Below, piece after piece: positions 43,172 to 64,000 of a stretch of 64,000 nucleotides of DNA; positions within the stretch are counted from its first letter, which is position 1; every line of letters starts with the position of its first letter. The notes beneath the pieces were generated by a model. That model was not told the DNA's origin, ran no database searches, and was given only the letters and a program-made list of their open reading frames with translations. The position numbers and the translations under genes were made by a program. This stretch comes from Amylibacter marinus (GTDB lineage: Bacteria; Pseudomonadota; Alphaproteobacteria; Rhodobacterales; Rhodobacteraceae), in contig NZ_BSNN01000004.1 in assembly GCF_030160015.1 (NCBI RefSeq), forward strand, positions 434,001 through 498,000, written 5' to 3'.

Positions 43172-46100
43172 ATGTTTGGGGATTTTCTCCACGGTTTTCC
43201 AAACCTGATGCGCATCTTTTCGGATAAAAACCGCGCGCCTCATTTGGGGCCTTATCCGCTGGAACGCTTGGCGCGCCGCAGTGATGCGCCTGATTTGTCA
43301 GATGTATCTGCGCCCGCGCCCCTTAGCTTTGATCTGGGCCAGCCCCAGCAATCCATCACCCACGCCATGCGCGACTATCAGGCCATGATGGATGCAATCC
43401 GCACCGGGCTGATCAATAAGGGCCGCAGCGAAATCCCCAATGATCCGATAGAGCGCGCCCAACACTTTAAATCATTTGCCTATTTTCAGGATGTATCGAT
43501 GGTGGGGATCGCCTGCATGACGCACGAATGCAGGCTGGATCAACCACTGAAAAATCCGGATGTCGCGGCCCTAGCGCAGGATCTACAGACCAAACAAACC
43601 AAGACATTTGCCGCCGGAATGGATGTGATCATGGCAGAGCTGAAAGATGCGGTGTCTGCCCCGCCCACCGGCATTGACGCCCATAGCCATGCTTTGGTTT
43701 TCCTGCATGAATACCCCCGTGATCCTGCATCTGACGAGGTGGGCGCCGCGTGGATTCAAAACGCCCAGCCCCACCGCGCGGCCTTGCTGGGCGCAGAGGT
43801 CGCCAATGTGGTGGCAAACTATATCCGCCTGTTAGGGCATGATGCCCGCGCACATTCCGCCACCGCATCCGAGGTAAATGTGAACCGGCTGGCCGTTTTG
43901 GCAGGGCTGGCCACATGGCAAGACGGCGCATTGCATAACCCCTATCTGGGCACTGGTTTTGGAATTTCCGTGGTGACCACCACACTGGATATGGCCGCCG
44001 ATCTGCCCCTTGCGGCTATGGCTGATCAACCGCGGCGCGCCAGCCACGGATTGGCATGGAAAATCGGCAAGGGTTCGGTGAAGTCGGCGCTAAATAGCGA
44101 CCCGTTCAAGAAGCGCCGCTTTGTCGATGGCCCATATCCATTCGAGAAGATCAAACGCGTTGATACCCCCACCACGCTGATCGACGAACCTAATATCCCC
44201 CGCGTGCCCAAACGTGCCGATCTGTTCGCCCGCGCCCAGTTTGGCGATCTGGGACCGGCGGTGGCGGATGGTGCGCGCAATGGGCATTATGTGCGCAAAA
44301 CCGCCCCCTCTAGCGCCCAAAGAAAACCCATGAGCGCATTTGTCTTGTTGCAAAACAAAGAGCGGGCATCCCACATTGATGACAGCGCAACCGATCCCCA
44401 AATCAATGCCGATAACATCAAGGCTACATCCTATTTTCTTGGCCTAGATGCAGTAGGTATTTCACGCGCCCCTGAATGGGCATTCTACTCGCATGATGCC
44501 ACGGGCACACCCATTGAAACCACCCATACCAACGCCATTTCAATGATCGTGGATCAGCGCTTTGATACGATGGATGGGTCATCTGGGGATGATTGGATCT
44601 CTGTGGCGCTGTCTATGCGGGCCTACCTGCGGTTTTCGTTGCTGGGTGGGGTGATTGCCGAACAAATCCGCGCGCTGGGCTATAGCGCCAAGGCCCATAC
44701 CGCCACCGATAGCGATGTGATCCAGCCCCCCCTGTTGTTGCTGGCAGGGTTGGGCGAGGTCAGCCGCATTGGCGAGGTGATCCTAAATCCGTTTCTGGGG
44801 CCGCGCCTGAAATCCGGTGTGATCACCACCGATATGCCGCTGGCCCATGACAAGCCCATTGATTTCGGCATGCAGAATTTCTGCAACTCTTGCAACAAAT
44901 GCGCGCGGGAATGCCCATCGGGGGCGATCACCGCAGGGCCAAAGAAAATGTTCAATGGCTATGAAATCTGGAAATCAGACAGCCAGCGCTGTGCCACCTA
45001 TCGCATTACGTCACCTGATGGGGCTATGTGCGGGCGCTGTATGAAAACATGCCCATGGAACCTAGAGGGCCTGTTCGCCGAGGCACCCTTTCGCTGGGCG
45101 GCAACTCATATTCCCAAGGCCGCACCCCTGCTGGCGCGCCTAGATGATCGGCTGGGCAATGGCGGGTTAAATCCTGCGAAGAAGTGGTGGTGGGATTTGG
45201 AAATCCAAGAAGACGAAGGATTTCGCCCCACGCAAAACGGCACCCATCAGCGGGATCTACAGGTGGATTTGAAAATCGACCCCGCCGAGCAAACACTGGC
45301 CGTTTACCCCGCTGACCAAGCCCCCCCACCGTGGCCTTTCCCGTTTCCGATGGATCGCGAACAGGGTATTCAAGCCTATCAAGAGCTGTTGTCCCCAGAG
45401 GAGTACCGCACCCACAGCGATGCGGGGACGCTGGATCAACATTTGCATAAATACACGCTACCAACGGATAGCCCCGCATTGCAAACACGCCTAAGCCGCG
45501 TAACAGAGCTAACCCCAAATATCAGCCTGTATGATTTTACACTGGAAAATGGCGCTGACCTACCGGAGTGGACGGCGGGTGCACATATTGATGTGGTGAT
45601 TGCCCCAGGGTTCATCCGCCAGTATTCGCTGTGTGGTGATCCAGCGGATCGCAGCAGATACCAAATCGCCGTTCTGCGCGAAGATGCGGGCAAGGGCGGA
45701 TCAAAGCTGTTGCATAAGATATTCACGCTAGGGCGGCGGGTGTTTATCTCGAAACCGATCAACCATTTCCCACTGGTGACGCCCGCGGCGCAATCCATTT
45801 TGATGGGCGGAGGCATTGGCATTACGCCGATGATCGCCATGGCCCATCAGGCCCATGCCTTGGGTCTAGAATTTCAGCTTCACTACTGTTGCAGTCGCAA
45901 GATGGATGCAGGGTTTGGCGATATATTGGCGCAAATGCCATGGGCAGATCGCGTTACATATCATTTCAGCGATACCGGCACGCGTGCAGATCTGTCCGCC
46001 ATAATGCGCCGCAATCCGGTAAACACCCATCTGTATACCTGTGGCCCTGATCGATTTATGGATGCGGTGATGGATGCGGGCGCGCAGGCTGGCCTGCCTG

Positions 46101-46423
46101 ATGACCACCGCCATTTGGAATATTTCAGCGCCCCAGAGGCGCCCGAATATGAAAACCACCCCTTTGTGGTACAGCTGGCCAACAGCGGCCAAACCTTTGA
46201 TATCCCTGCGGATCAAAGCATAACAGAGGTGCTTGCCGCGCATAATATCCCCGTGAATACCAAATGTTCCGATGGCATTTGCGGCGTGTGCAAATGCGGC
46301 TACTCTGGCGGTGATATCGAACACCGCGATTTCGTATTGTCTAACAAACAGCGCGAGACAGCCATGATCCCCTGCCAGTCGCGTGCGGCAACGATAGGGG
46401 CCAAGATCACTCTTGATCTCTAA
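43172..46423 (+). CDS. self-sufficient cobalamin-type reductive dehalogenase fused to flavin/2Fe-2S reductase
   Basis: 1083 residues, no Tat or Sec signal, so cytoplasmic. Residues 90-290 and 410-560 are two related copies of the B12-binding nitroreductase-like core. Then come two 4Fe-4S motifs: Cys571/574/577/581 and Cys607/620/623/627. Residues 765-1083 are a phthalate-dioxygenase-reductase module: flavin motif RQYS (816-819), NAD loop GGGIGITP (879-886), and a plant-type 2Fe-2S site Cys1032/1037/1040/1068. This is the layout of catabolic enzymes such as BhbA and NpRdhA, which remove bromine or chlorine from phenolic rings using NAD(P)H. Tyr439 and Lys507 are candidates for the acid pair. 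Start 43172 is weakly supported; 43208 is the alternative. Confidence 0.88.
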   Translation: MFGDFLHGFPNLMRIFSDKNRAPHLGPYPLERLARRSDAPDLSDVSAPAPLSFDLGQPQQSITHAMRDYQAMMDAIRTGLINKGRSEIPNDPIERAQHFKSFAYFQDVSMVGIACMTHECRLDQPLKNPDVAALAQDLQTKQTKTFAAGMDVIMAELKDAVSAPPTGIDAHSHALVFLHEYPRDPASDEVGAAWIQNAQPHRAALLGAEVANVVANYIRLLGHDARAHSATASEVNVNRLAVLAGLATWQDGALHNPYLGTGFGISVVTTTLDMAADLPLAAMADQPRRASHGLAWKIGKGSVKSALNSDPFKKRRFVDGPYPFEKIKRVDTPTTLIDEPNIPRVPKRADLFARAQFGDLGPAVADGARNGHYVRKTAPSSAQRKPMSAFVLLQNKERASHIDDSATDPQINADNIKATSYFLGLDAVGISRAPEWAFYSHDATGTPIETTHTNAISMIVDQRFDTMDGSSGDDWISVALSMRAYLRFSLLGGVIAEQIRALGYSAKAHTATDSDVIQPPLLLLAGLGEVSRIGEVILNPFLGPRLKSGVITTDMPLAHDKPIDFGMQNFCNSCNKCARECPSGAITAGPKKMFNGYEIWKSDSQRCATYRITSPDGAMCGRCMKTCPWNLEGLFAEAPFRWAATHIPKAAPLLARLDDRLGNGGLNPAKKWWWDLEIQEDEGFRPTQNGTHQRDLQVDLKIDPAEQTLAVYPADQAPPPWPFPFPMDREQGIQAYQELLSPEEYRTHSDAGTLDQHLHKYTLPTDSPALQTRLSRVTELTPNISLYDFTLENGADLPEWTAGAHIDVVIAPGFIRQYSLCGDPADRSRYQIAVLREDAGKGGSKLLHKIFTLGRRVFISKPINHFPLVTPAAQSILMGGGIGITPMIAMAHQAHALGLEFQLHYCCSRKMDAGFGDILAQMPWADRVTYHFSDTGTRADLSAIMRRNPVNTHLYTCGPDRFMDAVMDAGAQAGLPDDHRHLEYFSAPEAPEYENHPFVVQLANSGQTFDIPADQSITEVLAAHNIPVNTKCSDGICGVCKCGYSGGDIEHRDFVLSNKQRETAMIPCQSRAATIGAKITLDL

Positions 46424-60368: not shown

Positions 60369-61580
60369 TCAGCCAGCCTGATTTAGCGGCGATGCAGATT
60401 CAACCGGCGGCATGCCCAAAGGCGCATGGGAAAACTCTACCAACGTATAGCCACCCGGAATGGGCGATACCCGCGTGATCAGGGATTTGCCGTTATTCAT
60501 CTCGGCCAAGCTTTGAAATCTTGCGCGGTCATAAATCTGAGTAGAGAAATCGCGGATATCACCCCAAATAGGCGTGGGCTTGCACTTGTCTTGCCAAATA
60601 TCGGTCAGATCGGCGATGTTCGGCGACAGCAGGTTATCGGCAAACTGGGTATTCCACAGCCGATCAAAAGCATTATTGGCAAAGCTAAGGGTGCCAGAAC
60701 TATCAAACACCACCAATGCCGAATCCAGCTGGTCAAAAATGCCGTACAGACGCTCAACCTCTAGGCGGAAATTGCGCTCTACCTCGGTGGAGCGGGTGAT
60801 ATCCTCGAACACAAATGCCACAGACCCAGCGGGATGCGAGCGCCCCGTAACGCGGAAAACCTGATCATTGGGCATGTGCCAATCATCGGTGTAGGCATCT
60901 GACTCTGCGCTTTTCTCCATCTCGATGATCTGATCACGCCAGCTTTTGAAATCACGAGGCTCGGGCAATGCGCCCTTGTCGTGTAATCGATCCAGAAAAT
61001 CGCGCAGGCTTGGCTTTTTGGCCAACCACATGATTTCCAGATCCAATAACGCCGAGAGCGCCGGGTTAAACAGCGATAAGTCGCGTTCCTTGTCGAACAC
61101 CGCCACACCAATGGGCAGATGCGCAAAGCTCTCCGATAGGGTCTGTACGAACCGCTTGCGGTCGCGTTCCGCCGTTACGGCGGCCTTGGCGGAAATAGCG
61201 GCGTAATAATTTAGACCACCTGAGAAAAAGTGAAAAACATCAAAATGGTATGTCGTCTTGCCGGGGCCGCTCTCTAGTCGTGCGCGGCTCTGTGATCTGT
61301 TCTCCTCTAACGGTTTCGCCAGATTGAAATGCTCGATCATCAGCCGCTGTTTGCCGAAGGCCTCCTCCATGCGTTGATGGGTTGCATTTGCCCAAACAAC
61401 GGTGTCATCCGCCTCGACCCAGATCAGCGCGGGCAGGTTGAATAATATTTCCGCTTGTAGCTTTGCCAGATTTCTGCCGACGGTATTGTCACGCGGTTTA
61501 CTGCTATAGCTTAGCAATAGCGCAAACATTGCCAGCACTAAGAGAAACAGCCAATACCAGATAGTTATGGAATGATCCAA
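60369..61580 (-). CDS. membrane-anchored PAS-domain protein without kinase domain
   Basis: 403 residues from a TTG at 61580 preceded by AAAGGGAAG; the frame opens at a TTG at 61619 that has no such site. One N-terminal membrane helix (WYWLFLLVLAMFALLLSYS) is followed by three PAS-like units starting near residues 37, 140 and 270 (ESFAHLPIGVAVFDKERDLS; FDQLDSALVVFDSSGTLSFA). No HisKA or ATPase domain follows: the protein ends after the last PAS. It is in the leftward unit between regB and tsaE. It may sense a signal and act on a partner, or be a kinase that lost its catalytic part. Confidence 0.8.
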   Translation of the reverse strand: MDHSITIWYWLFLLVLAMFALLLSYSSKPRDNTVGRNLAKLQAEILFNLPALIWVEADDTVVWANATHQRMEEAFGKQRLMIEHFNLAKPLEENRSQSRARLESGPGKTTYHFDVFHFFSGGLNYYAAISAKAAVTAERDRKRFVQTLSESFAHLPIGVAVFDKERDLSLFNPALSALLDLEIMWLAKKPSLRDFLDRLHDKGALPEPRDFKSWRDQIIEMEKSAESDAYTDDWHMPNDQVFRVTGRSHPAGSVAFVFEDITRSTEVERNFRLEVERLYGIFDQLDSALVVFDSSGTLSFANNAFDRLWNTQFADNLLSPNIADLTDIWQDKCKPTPIWGDIRDFSTQIYDRARFQSLAEMNNGKSLITRVSPIPGGYTLVEFSHAPLGMPPVESASPLNQAG

Positions 61581-61647
61581 TAGTCTTCCCTTTGTCGAAT
61601 GTATTCGATACCAGATCAATTTGACGTTAACGAAAGGTTAACTCAAG

Positions 61648-63045
61648 CTAAATATTAAACTTAGGGTTGTTTTTGTATGAAGGCTGATCATCCTTAAGTA
61701 GCTCTAGAGGCCATCTAACGGTGGCAACGGCCCCGCGCCGCCCCGCCATATGCTCGCTAAGCCCTGCGTCCAATTTACCTGAATTGGCATTGGTAAACTC
61801 TAGTTGTGCGCCTGTGCGTTCTAGCAATGTCTTGGCGATGAACAAGCCCAGGCCCATGCCCTCATATTCTGGGCGATCGGGGTTTTTCTTGGCCTTGCTA
61901 CGGCGCAAAAATGGGTCTCCAATACGTGACAAATACTCATACGGATATCCGCGCCCGTTGTCGCCAATAGAAATGTGCAAATAGGTGCGATCCCATTGGA
62001 TATTAACCCAGACTTTCGAGGCAGCAAAATCCACCGCATTCTGGATTAGATTGCGCAATCCATGAACAATCTCAGGATGGCGTGGTATGGCGGGCATCCG
62101 CGCCTCTAGGGCTAGATCTGTCAATCCATTGGTTAGGAAAATGATTGTCTTGCCCCGATCCTGATGTGGGGCTGCCGCCTCTTGAACCACCGTTAGAACG
62201 GGCGCGCGTTTCATATGCAGATCATCCTTGCCGGTTTTACCCATACCGCGCAGGATACCACTTAGACGTTCTGCCTGATCTTTGATCAAGATCACATCCT
62301 CCTGTAGTTCCGGACGCGCGCCCAGCTCGTCTTGCAATTCCGACGCCACCAGCTTGATTGTGGCCAGCGGCGTGCCCATTTCATGGGTGGTGGCGGCCAT
62401 AGCGCCGCCCAAAATTGTCAACTTGTGTTCGCGATCCAGCGCCATCTGCGTGGCCGCCAGCGCCTGAGACATATTGAATGTCTCCATGGTGATCTGGCGC
62501 GCATAGATGGCTAAAAATACCGACCCAATTACCAAGGCAAACCAGTTTCCCCATAGCAAAAGATCGGGTAGAATAATCACCGTACCATCCAGACGTGTTA
62601 ACGGCAGATTGAATTTTGCCAAAAGAGTGATGGCCAAGATACCAGAGGCCCCCAACAATACCGTAGATCGTAGGGTCAGCGCCGTGGCTGAAATGATGAC
62701 AGGGGCCAGCAACAACAATGCAAATGGATTGGTTAACCCACCCGTTAAATACAATAACAAGACCAGCTGAAACAAATCAAAGAACAGGCTAAACACCGCC
62801 GCCGGCTCTGATAGGCGTTGAATACGGGTCAACACCGCGCCAGATACAATGTTAAACCCAACCGATAGCCCAATGGCAAACAGACACAACGCCAGATTAA
62901 TGCGGATGTCCAAAAACGCATAGGCGACGACCAGCGCCAGAACCTGCCCAGAAACCGCCATCCACCGCAACAACGTTAGCGTGCGTAGCCGCACCCATTC
63001 ACTGCGAGAAGAGCTGTTCGCAAGGCTAAGAGATTTATACATCAT
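61648..63045 (-). CDS. regB: redox-type sensor histidine kinase RegB/PrrB
   Basis: 465 residues. Six membrane helices fill residues 25-185, and the quinone-site motif GGLTNPF is at 102-108. The H-box is HEMGTPLATIKLVASEL with His221; the ATPase domain has GLRNLIQNAVDFA, GDNGRGYP and GMGLGLFIAKTLLE. It phosphorylates RegA, controlling respiration, carbon fixation and photosynthesis genes in relatives. The redox-active cysteine expected 40 residues after the histidine (Cys265 in Rhodobacter) is Leu261 here. It is divergent from senC-regA, the standard arrangement. Confidence 0.95.
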   Translation of the reverse strand: MMYKSLSLANSSSRSEWVRLRTLTLLRWMAVSGQVLALVVAYAFLDIRINLALCLFAIGLSVGFNIVSGAVLTRIQRLSEPAAVFSLFFDLFQLVLLLYLTGGLTNPFALLLLAPVIISATALTLRSTVLLGASGILAITLLAKFNLPLTRLDGTVIILPDLLLWGNWFALVIGSVFLAIYARQITMETFNMSQALAATQMALDREHKLTILGGAMAATTHEMGTPLATIKLVASELQDELGARPELQEDVILIKDQAERLSGILRGMGKTGKDDLHMKRAPVLTVVQEAAAPHQDRGKTIIFLTNGLTDLALEARMPAIPRHPEIVHGLRNLIQNAVDFAASKVWVNIQWDRTYLHISIGDNGRGYPYEYLSRIGDPFLRRSKAKKNPDRPEYEGMGLGLFIAKTLLERTGAQLEFTNANSGKLDAGLSEHMAGRRGAVATVRWPLELLKDDQPSYKNNPKFNI

Positions 63046-63140
63046 AAAGCTTTCGTGACGGTACAGAGTTTGCGGTTTAGGCGCGCCTGAAAATAGGCTA
63101 ATGCACAGATATCAGTTTGACCAGCAAAAGGAAATTTCAG

Positions 63141-63743
63141 ATGGGCAAGAGATTGGGCGTCGCTCTGGCAGGCGTTGCAGCGGTGGCGGTTCTGGGCACT
63201 GGGTATATGGTATCTTGGCAAAGTGGCCTTCAGGCCTGTGGTTCCACCGTAATTGCGGGCGAGCAGGCAAGTATCGGCGGGCCATTTGAATTGATCGACC
63301 AATACGGAAAAACCCGCACCTCGGCCGATGTGATCACCGGCCCCACATTGATCTATTTCGGCTATACTTTTTGCCCCGACATTTGCCCCCTAGATACGGT
63401 GCGTAATCTAGATGCCATTGATATTCTGGATGAACGCGGCATTGATGTTTTGCCGGTATTCATCACCATTGATCCCGCGCGCGATACGGTATCCGCCCTT
63501 GCGGATTACGCAGAGGTCAGCCACCCGCGTATGCTGGCCCTAACCGGTAGCGAGGCACAGGTTGCCGCCGCATCAAAGGCCTATCGCACATTCTATCGTA
63601 AAAGTGGCGAAGGCGAGGATTACCTGATGGATCACTCGACCTTTAGCTACTTGATGGATGAAACCGGCTTTGTGGAATTTTTTAGGCGCGATGCCTCGCC
63701 AGCCGAGGTGGCCGATGCAATCGGGTGCTTTACGGAGATTTGA
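63141..63743 (+). CDS. senC: SCO1/SenC copper-binding protein
   Basis: 200 residues from the ATG at 63141 with AAAGGA upstream. An N-terminal membrane anchor (VALAGVAAVAVLGTGYMV) holds a thioredoxin-like domain with the copper ligands Cys78 and Cys82 in FCPDICP and His165 in MDHSTFSY. It delivers copper to cytochrome c oxidase (Cu-A or Cu-B) in the periplasm, and PrrC/SenC influences RegB signalling in Rhodobacter. regA follows after 45 bases. Confidence 0.95.
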   Translation: MGKRLGVALAGVAAVAVLGTGYMVSWQSGLQACGSTVIAGEQASIGGPFELIDQYGKTRTSADVITGPTLIYFGYTFCPDICPLDTVRNLDAIDILDERGIDVLPVFITIDPARDTVSALADYAEVSHPRMLALTGSEAQVAAASKAYRTFYRKSGEGEDYLMDHSTFSYLMDETGFVEFFRRDASPAEVADAIGCFTEI

Positions 63744-63788: not shown

Positions 63789-64000
63789 ATGACTGATAAA
63801 TCCTTGAACGAAATCGGGCCGGACAACACCCTGCTTATTCTGGATGATGATGAACCCTTCCGTAACCGACTGGCCCGCGCCATGGATAAGCGCGGCTTTC
63901 AGACCACCGCCCTTGATTGCGTGGCCGCCGGGCGTGCCTTTTGTACCGCCACACCCCCCGCATATGCCGTGATTGACCTGCGCCTAGAGGATGGGAATGG
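63789..64000 (+). CDS. regA: response regulator RegA/PrrA, N-terminal part
   Basis: 70 residues visible before the window ends. GGAGGGG precedes the ATG at 63789. The receiver has the acidic triad in LLILDDDEPFRNRLARAM and the phosphorylated Asp in VIDLRLEDGNG (about residue 63). The DNA-binding Fis-type helix-turn-helix lies beyond the edge. It is the cognate regulator of the divergent regB kinase gene. Confidence 0.93.
   Translation, partial: MTDKSLNEIGPDNTLLILDDDEPFRNRLARAMDKRGFQTTALDCVAAGRAFCTATPPAYAVIDLRLEDGN

Follow-up and report, generated by a model that had tools for sequence, protein, structure and literature searches.

The window, a stretch of 64,000 nucleotides from Amylibacter marinus, contains near its end a gene for a sensor histidine kinase on the reverse strand (61648..63045); its open reading frame starts with ATG, has no internal stops, and encodes 465 amino acids. 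The translated product scores 607.2 bits against NF045988, the Rhodobacterales model named "sensor histidine kinase RegB" (cut-off 570), and 508.6 bits against NF033792, the ActS/PrrB/RegB model (cut-off 350); both models are NCBIfam equivalogs with curated cut-offs, and the product is above both. The Pfam domains HisKA and HATPase_c are also present. Divergent from regB lies senC (SCO1/SenC; 63117..63743, forward strand, start codon uncertain), with its CxxxC cysteines, and next to it regA (63789..64000, forward strand), which runs past the window end. The full regA, encoding 184 amino acids, was read from the source genome (L052:3790-4344, i.e., G000:C4:497789-498343), and it keeps Asp63 and Cys156. 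Having regA and senC as neighbors is a membership feature of RegB/PrrB, and the first-pass annotation had rightly called this an otherwise standard regB-senC-regA locus. By its NF045988 score and this neighborhood, the product of 61648-63045 is a RegB orthologue. The gene is single-copy; a second RegB that carries the cysteine discussed below was considered for the source genome and rejected, the next match being only 29.9 bits. On the downstream side, regB is adjoined by a gene for a PAS-domain protein (60369..61619, reverse strand), possibly in one transcript with it, and a similar open reading frame also follows regB in another member of the genus (G120). Elsewhere in the window, a protein of 1083 amino acids is encoded at 43172-46423 (forward strand); it combines a double-cluster 4Fe-4S domain with a reductase-like/2Fe-2S part at its C-terminus, and we take it to resemble the self-sufficient reductive dehalogenases of aerobic marine bacteria.

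The six transmembrane helices of RegB/PrrB were counted in the window RegB from a fold model, not from a transmembrane prediction (helices 20-43, 51-71, 80-100, 109-120, 125-144, and one from 161). The phospho-acceptor, His221 (62383..62385, reverse strand), lies in the H-box HEMGTP, and the ATP-binding N, G1, F, and G2 boxes are all in place. The motif GGLTNPF, reported as intact in the first-pass annotation, indeed occupies residues 102-108 (62722..62742, reverse strand); PMC8191878 describes it as the quinone-binding motif of RegB proteins. The redox box with its conserved Cys265 is the feature that was not found: the codon aligned with R. capsulatus Cys265 is CTA (62263..62265, reverse strand), which encodes Leu261. 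Because the curated model still assigns the protein, we file it as a variant RegB without the redox-box cysteine.

The placement of this residue deserves attention. Leu261 (in QAERLSGILRG) is located exactly 40 residues after His221, without gaps, as the first-pass annotation had counted and as the translation bears out. We assume, following that annotation, that phospho-His225 and the redox-active Cys265 of R. capsulatus RegB are also 40 residues apart. In gap-free stretches, the His+40 position is occupied by a cysteine in Phaeovulum veldkampii, in ActS of Sinorhizobium meliloti (His219/Cys259), and in the protein of Azospirillum lipoferum (229/269). The R-C-R motif of the redox box, which Swem and colleagues are said to have defined in 2003 as a cysteine flanked by cationic residues, reads R-L-S in the window RegB. 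The R. capsulatus kinase becomes inactive when its Cys265 is oxidized to sulfenic acid or engaged in an intermolecular disulfide. Leu261 probably stands at the Cys265 position; this assignment was made from the His225-Cys265 spacing, the R-C-R context, and the invariance of the cysteine outside the genus. The column of residue 261 was matched to Cys265 because cysteine is invariant there in 147 outside proteins, which is not the case for Cys54. PMC9147068 and PMC8191878 describe Cys265 as the conserved cytosolic cysteine that controls kinase activity. A cysteine shifted along the chain was also considered and rejected, the offset from the histidine being 40 without gaps. Replacement of cysteine by leucine takes a minimum of two base changes, and six kinds of leucine codons were seen at position 261 in the genus, which excludes a base-call error. 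The statement that no cysteine lies within 30 residues of Leu261 is true and even understated: Cys54 (62884..62886, reverse strand), in the predicted transmembrane helix 2 (51-71), is the only cysteine of the protein.

The first-pass annotation had proposed an alignment of RegB proteins as a check of how the loss is distributed, and this comparison shows that, in the genomes sampled, the loss is both confined to the source genus and genus-wide within it. RegB was detected (E 1e-40) in 30 of 33 genomes of the genus, with one match in each, the three genomes without it being 71, 79, and 83% complete; all 30 proteins have leucine at position 261. In GTDB terms, this genus is probably Amylibacter, and its members are probably marine bacteria. 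In a set of 12 full-length proteins, the three with leucine (L038, L043, and L049) are identical, across the columns aligned, to RegBs of the genus (those of G416, G421, and G399), and the nine further RegBs have cysteine at this site. For the family, we used a degenerate DNA pattern permitting any residue at the site, which matched 328 of 394 genomes (393 genera), and a version restricted to cysteine codons, which matched 326 of 394; the only genomes that matched the former and not the latter were the two members of the genus in this draw, G000 (the source genome) and G120. A backward control pattern gave 0 among the matches listed. The 66 pattern-negative genomes were followed up: 33 were re-searched with a protein query (30 RegBs, three without), 13 RegBs were fetched, and 20 genomes were without RegB. 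The resulting 43 RegBs include 42 with cysteine and one (L087) that ends before the site. Altogether, outside the genus but within the family, 368 of 368 RegBs that could be read at the site have cysteine, i.e., 326 pattern matches, counted as RegB on the pattern alone, and 42 proteins read.

A class-level sample gave the same result, with cysteine at the site in 68 of 68 sequences read. Here, 142 genomes were searched by the family model and 70 matched; the 68 sequences (30 loci and 38 fetched) omit the match of the window itself, one partial protein (G455), and two fragments (G467), and they include one from the source family (L135, G210), two from a single genome (G463), and two below the family cut-off (L195 and L196). 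No sporadic loss of Cys261 was seen in other genera, either in the family pattern counts, in the family RegBs read, or in the class sample. The first-pass annotation had named, as an outcome that would refute it, leucine being common in RegB proteins proven to use thiol control; leucine was found in no RegB read outside the genus. It should be noted that some genomes of the family were without a RegB match (20 of 295 at E 1e-60, and 3 of 33 at E 1e-40), among them G130, G167, G283, G352, and G390, although these are 99-100% complete; the whole kinase seems to have been lost elsewhere in the family.

The contrast is specific to this position and far from what chance would give. In an alignment of 30 genus proteins versus 147 others (80 from the family and 67 from the class), the 147 show no variation in 18 columns; of these, column 261 is the only one in which the genus majority differs, in 30 of 30 proteins. 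At a conservation level of 98%, it is the only switched column of 31; at 95%, two of 55 columns are switched, 223 and 261. The 80 family rows are not a random draw, since they were chosen partly as the closest matches to the window RegB and partly as RegBs missed by the pattern; the pattern counts cover the whole draw. In a tree of 114 proteins, inferred with column 261 blanked (a quick method, LG+G4, no bootstrap, with three non-genus rows on long branches), the 29 genus rows form a single clade, set off by a branch with SH-aLRT of 100, and a single residue change at position 261 is needed. A separate alignment of 39 proteins was made with L105 and L066 left out. We conclude that Leu261 is a genus-wide state that was reached once. 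The second switched column corresponds to Met223 (62377-62379), two residues after the phosphorylated histidine, which replaces leucine in 29 of 30 genus proteins, compared to 6 of 80 in the family and 0 of 67 in the class; Met223 is possibly a packing partner of Leu261.

Several observations bear on whether the kinase has stayed functional. All 30 genus RegBs share an identical G2 box, 29 have the H-box HEMGTP and one has HETGTP, and the five commonest variants of the quinone motif, which cover 29 of 30 proteins, all conform to GGxxNPF, the remaining protein (L115) being truncated there. The dN/dS ratios, calculated with an in-house Nei-Gojobori procedure, are 0.027-0.075 in the 12 genus pairs, of 14 compared, in which dS was not saturated, and 0.101-0.117 in three of four cysteine-bearing pairs; thus, purifying selection acts on the genus RegBs and on the cysteine-bearing RegBs alike. 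The window RegB is most likely active as a kinase.

The choice of leucine is of interest in its own right. Residues 247, 251, 254, 258, 261, 265, and 268, on alpha-2 of the dimerization domain, are mostly non-polar and follow a 4-3, heptad-like spacing, as expected for the core of a four-helix bundle; by this spacing, residue 261 is probably buried. In an AlphaFold2 model of middling confidence (mean pLDDT 73.8, pTM 0.43), residue 261 is in a helix comprising residues 245-274, and His221 is in the preceding helix. CpxA has leucine at the position aligned with 261; of seven other kinases of the source genome, six align at this site, with L, L, L, M, F, and I (pairwise alignments, some of them gappy). 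Because a hydrophobic residue is found there in the other histidine kinases compared, leucine restores what appears to be the general histidine-kinase pattern, and its fixation may reflect packing alone. The residue that follows the cysteine site is arginine in 74 of 80 family proteins versus 13 of 30 in the genus (S in 15, G in one, and A in one), as if the redox box has been decaying in the genus after the loss of the cysteine.

Taken together, we consider it probable that the window encodes an orthologous, functional RegB, the cytosolic thiol brake of which was lost once in the ancestor of the genus, leaving oxidized quinone as its remaining known input. According to this model, the fold and the activity would be kept with leucine in place of cysteine, and the Leu261 kinase would no longer be switched off by thiol oxidation or by disulfide tetramers. 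Inhibition of the window RegB by thiol oxidation is, therefore, predicted to be absent. Oxidized ubiquinone acting at GGxxNPF would be the remaining known redox input of RegB; given the intact motif, it is reasonable to suppose that this RegB reads the quinone pool only. Of the known cysteine switches in this pathway, Cys156 of RegA alone would then remain. A reason for the loss might be found in an aerobic life, in which a brake responding to oxygen is dispensable or harmful.

This last point can be compared with gene content. In the genus, napA was found in 0 of 33 genomes versus 11 of 33 in other genera (Fisher p 0.0004), ccoN (cbb3 oxidase; E 1e-50, some of the matches being fragments or below the cut-off) in 23 of 33 versus 32 of 33 (Fisher p 0.006), and pufM in 3 of 33 versus 10 of 33 (Fisher p 0.06). 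The comparison set consisted of 33 other genera of the family picked for high completeness. When the genus is restricted to the 24 genomes with a completeness of 90% or more, ccoN is present in 18 and pufM in one. Because species are not independent and nine of 33 genus genomes are less than 90% complete, this contrast is only suggestive. In the source genome, ccoN is present, and pufM and napA were not found at the thresholds used. The classic RegA targets are not simply gone, as the ccoN and pufM counts of the genus indicate; ccoN was not found (E 1e-50) in four genomes that are 98-100% complete and have RegB (G396, G412, G414, and G415). A loss solely through lost photosynthesis was rejected: two genomes (G402 and G420) have pufM, yet their RegB has leucine. 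PMC11837527 describes its Amylibacter genomes as lacking phototrophy genes; it also credits them with dissimilatory sulfate reduction, and this is at odds with a purely aerobic lineage. We lean towards an aerobic lineage, which does not by itself prove the cause of the cysteine loss.

These data are relevant for a neutral alternative, in which the brake became irrelevant in an aerobic lineage and the residue drifted to a generic core residue under relaxed constraint, with the same biochemistry and no selection. The napA, ccoN, and pufM counts, the decay of Arg262 of the redox box following the loss of the cysteine, and the finding that other kinases carry leucine or a different hydrophobic residue here are all compatible with such a loss. 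However, leucine is fully fixed, none of the 30 proteins having Ala, Ser, Val, Ile, or Met instead, although the core positions 251 and 258 vary, and the gene counts come from genus and control samples that are not independent, with the incomplete genomes noted above. We put this alternative at a little below an even chance. A selective version, in which an aerobic genus was selected for a thiol-blind RegB (Leu261 fixed and Met223 nearly so) and RegA retained its own cysteine switch, is conceivable, and we are inclined to doubt it somewhat. If true, quinone sensing and cytosolic thiol sensing would be split over two proteins, whereas in Rhodobacter both report to RegB.

Another possibility is that thiol sensing has not been lost but has moved, with Cys54 or Cys92 in the membrane part of RegB, or Cys156 of RegA, acting instead. 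From residue 182 onward, 28 of 30 genus RegBs are cysteine-free, and the two exceptions, L108 with one cysteine (442) and L114 with three (309, 346, and 394), share no column; therefore, a replacement cysteine at a functional position, the other outcome that would have spoken against the first-pass annotation, was not found. (The match of L115 spans residues 139-453 only.) Of the 29 genus RegBs readable at Cys54, 23 retain this residue, which may be reactive, and its retention could be read in favor of moved sensing; however, six lack it, and being equally common in the family RegBs that have Cys261 (64 of 80), it is not a replacement. Three genus RegBs (L098, L101, and L106) have no cysteine at all in the 473-480 residues read. 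A search of the flanks in the corresponding loci (G404, G394, and G395) revealed no senC, and the gap between regB and regA is less than about 200 bases; senC was likewise not found beside the cysteine-bearing RegBs L011 and L033, so that a cysteine-free RegB and the absence of senC need not be linked. As for RegA, all 28 genus loci whose flank includes the whole protein have both Cys156 and Asp63 (the flank of L105 includes RegA in part, and that of L115 not at all), and this, too, could be counted for moved sensing, although Cys156 is also present in the loci of other genera that cover it. In R. capsulatus RegA, Cys156 is reported in PMC9147068 to form a disulfide with copper and oxygen. Given that RegA keeps this cysteine, the system is not thiol-free, and control by thiols or copper could still operate one step downstream of RegB. 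A transfer of the sensing function is nonetheless unlikely. The original proposal of a RegB without thiol switching is strongly supported as far as the Cys265-type switch is concerned, considering 30 of 30 leucines and no replacement cysteine.

It is even harder to believe that Leu261 mimics the oxidized, inactive state, so that RegB would be a weak kinase acting mainly as a RegA phosphatase. A bulky residue in a four-helix bundle can, as a matter of general knowledge, shift the balance between kinase and phosphatase, dephosphorylation of their partner by RegB-family proteins is cited in PMC6530869, and Met223, beside the phosphorylated histidine, is near-fixed in the genus. Against this, the kinase motifs are intact, and other kinases also carry leucine at the site. 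Finally, an artefact of assembly, alignment, or orthology assignment, for which no supporting point was found, is hardly credible in view of 30 species-level genomes, six leucine codons, a gap-free His+40 offset, one RegB match per genome, and no hit of the backward control among the matches listed.

Under the preferred reading, i.e., a working RegB that lost its thiol brake once, the genus is a natural experiment on the thiol switch, having lost the cysteine a single time while the motifs and purifying selection were kept. RegB is a redox-sensing kinase of many proteobacteria, and Cys265 has been described as its conserved redox switch; all RegBs readable outside the genus have this cysteine. 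Its single loss in a clade that kept the motifs and purifying selection suggests that the cysteine may be dispensable for a working RegB. In our judgement, the share of Cys265 in vivo is hard to separate from the quinone signal in Rhodobacter, and orthologues with leucine and with cysteine provide matched pairs for testing the cysteine. A warning for annotation follows as well: labels assigned by family alone call such cysteine-less RegBs "redox-sensitive". Among the openly available papers searched, we found none on a RegB without this cysteine.

Comparison to known systems places the window RegB as follows. R. capsulatus RegB and R. sphaeroides PrrB, as known from the literature, share with it the transmembrane kinase architecture, GGxxNPF, HE(L/M)GTP, the divergent regB-senC-regA arrangement, and the NF045988 assignment; the difference is Cys265 within R-C-R in R. 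capsulatus versus Leu261 within R-L-S here. S. meliloti ActS, a kinase of the ActS/PrrB/RegB family adjoining ActR, aligns along 90% of the window RegB, but with 39% identity and with cysteine at His+40. SpdS of Caulobacter crescentus is homologous to RegB (NF033792 has a match in the Caulobacter genome used as a control), and, according to PMC6530869, it keeps the conserved cysteine, C248, unlike the window RegB. Conversely, CpxA and generic HisKA kinases share with the window RegB leucine at the aligned position of alpha-2; CpxA, however, aligns with it in the kinase part alone and is not a RegB orthologue.
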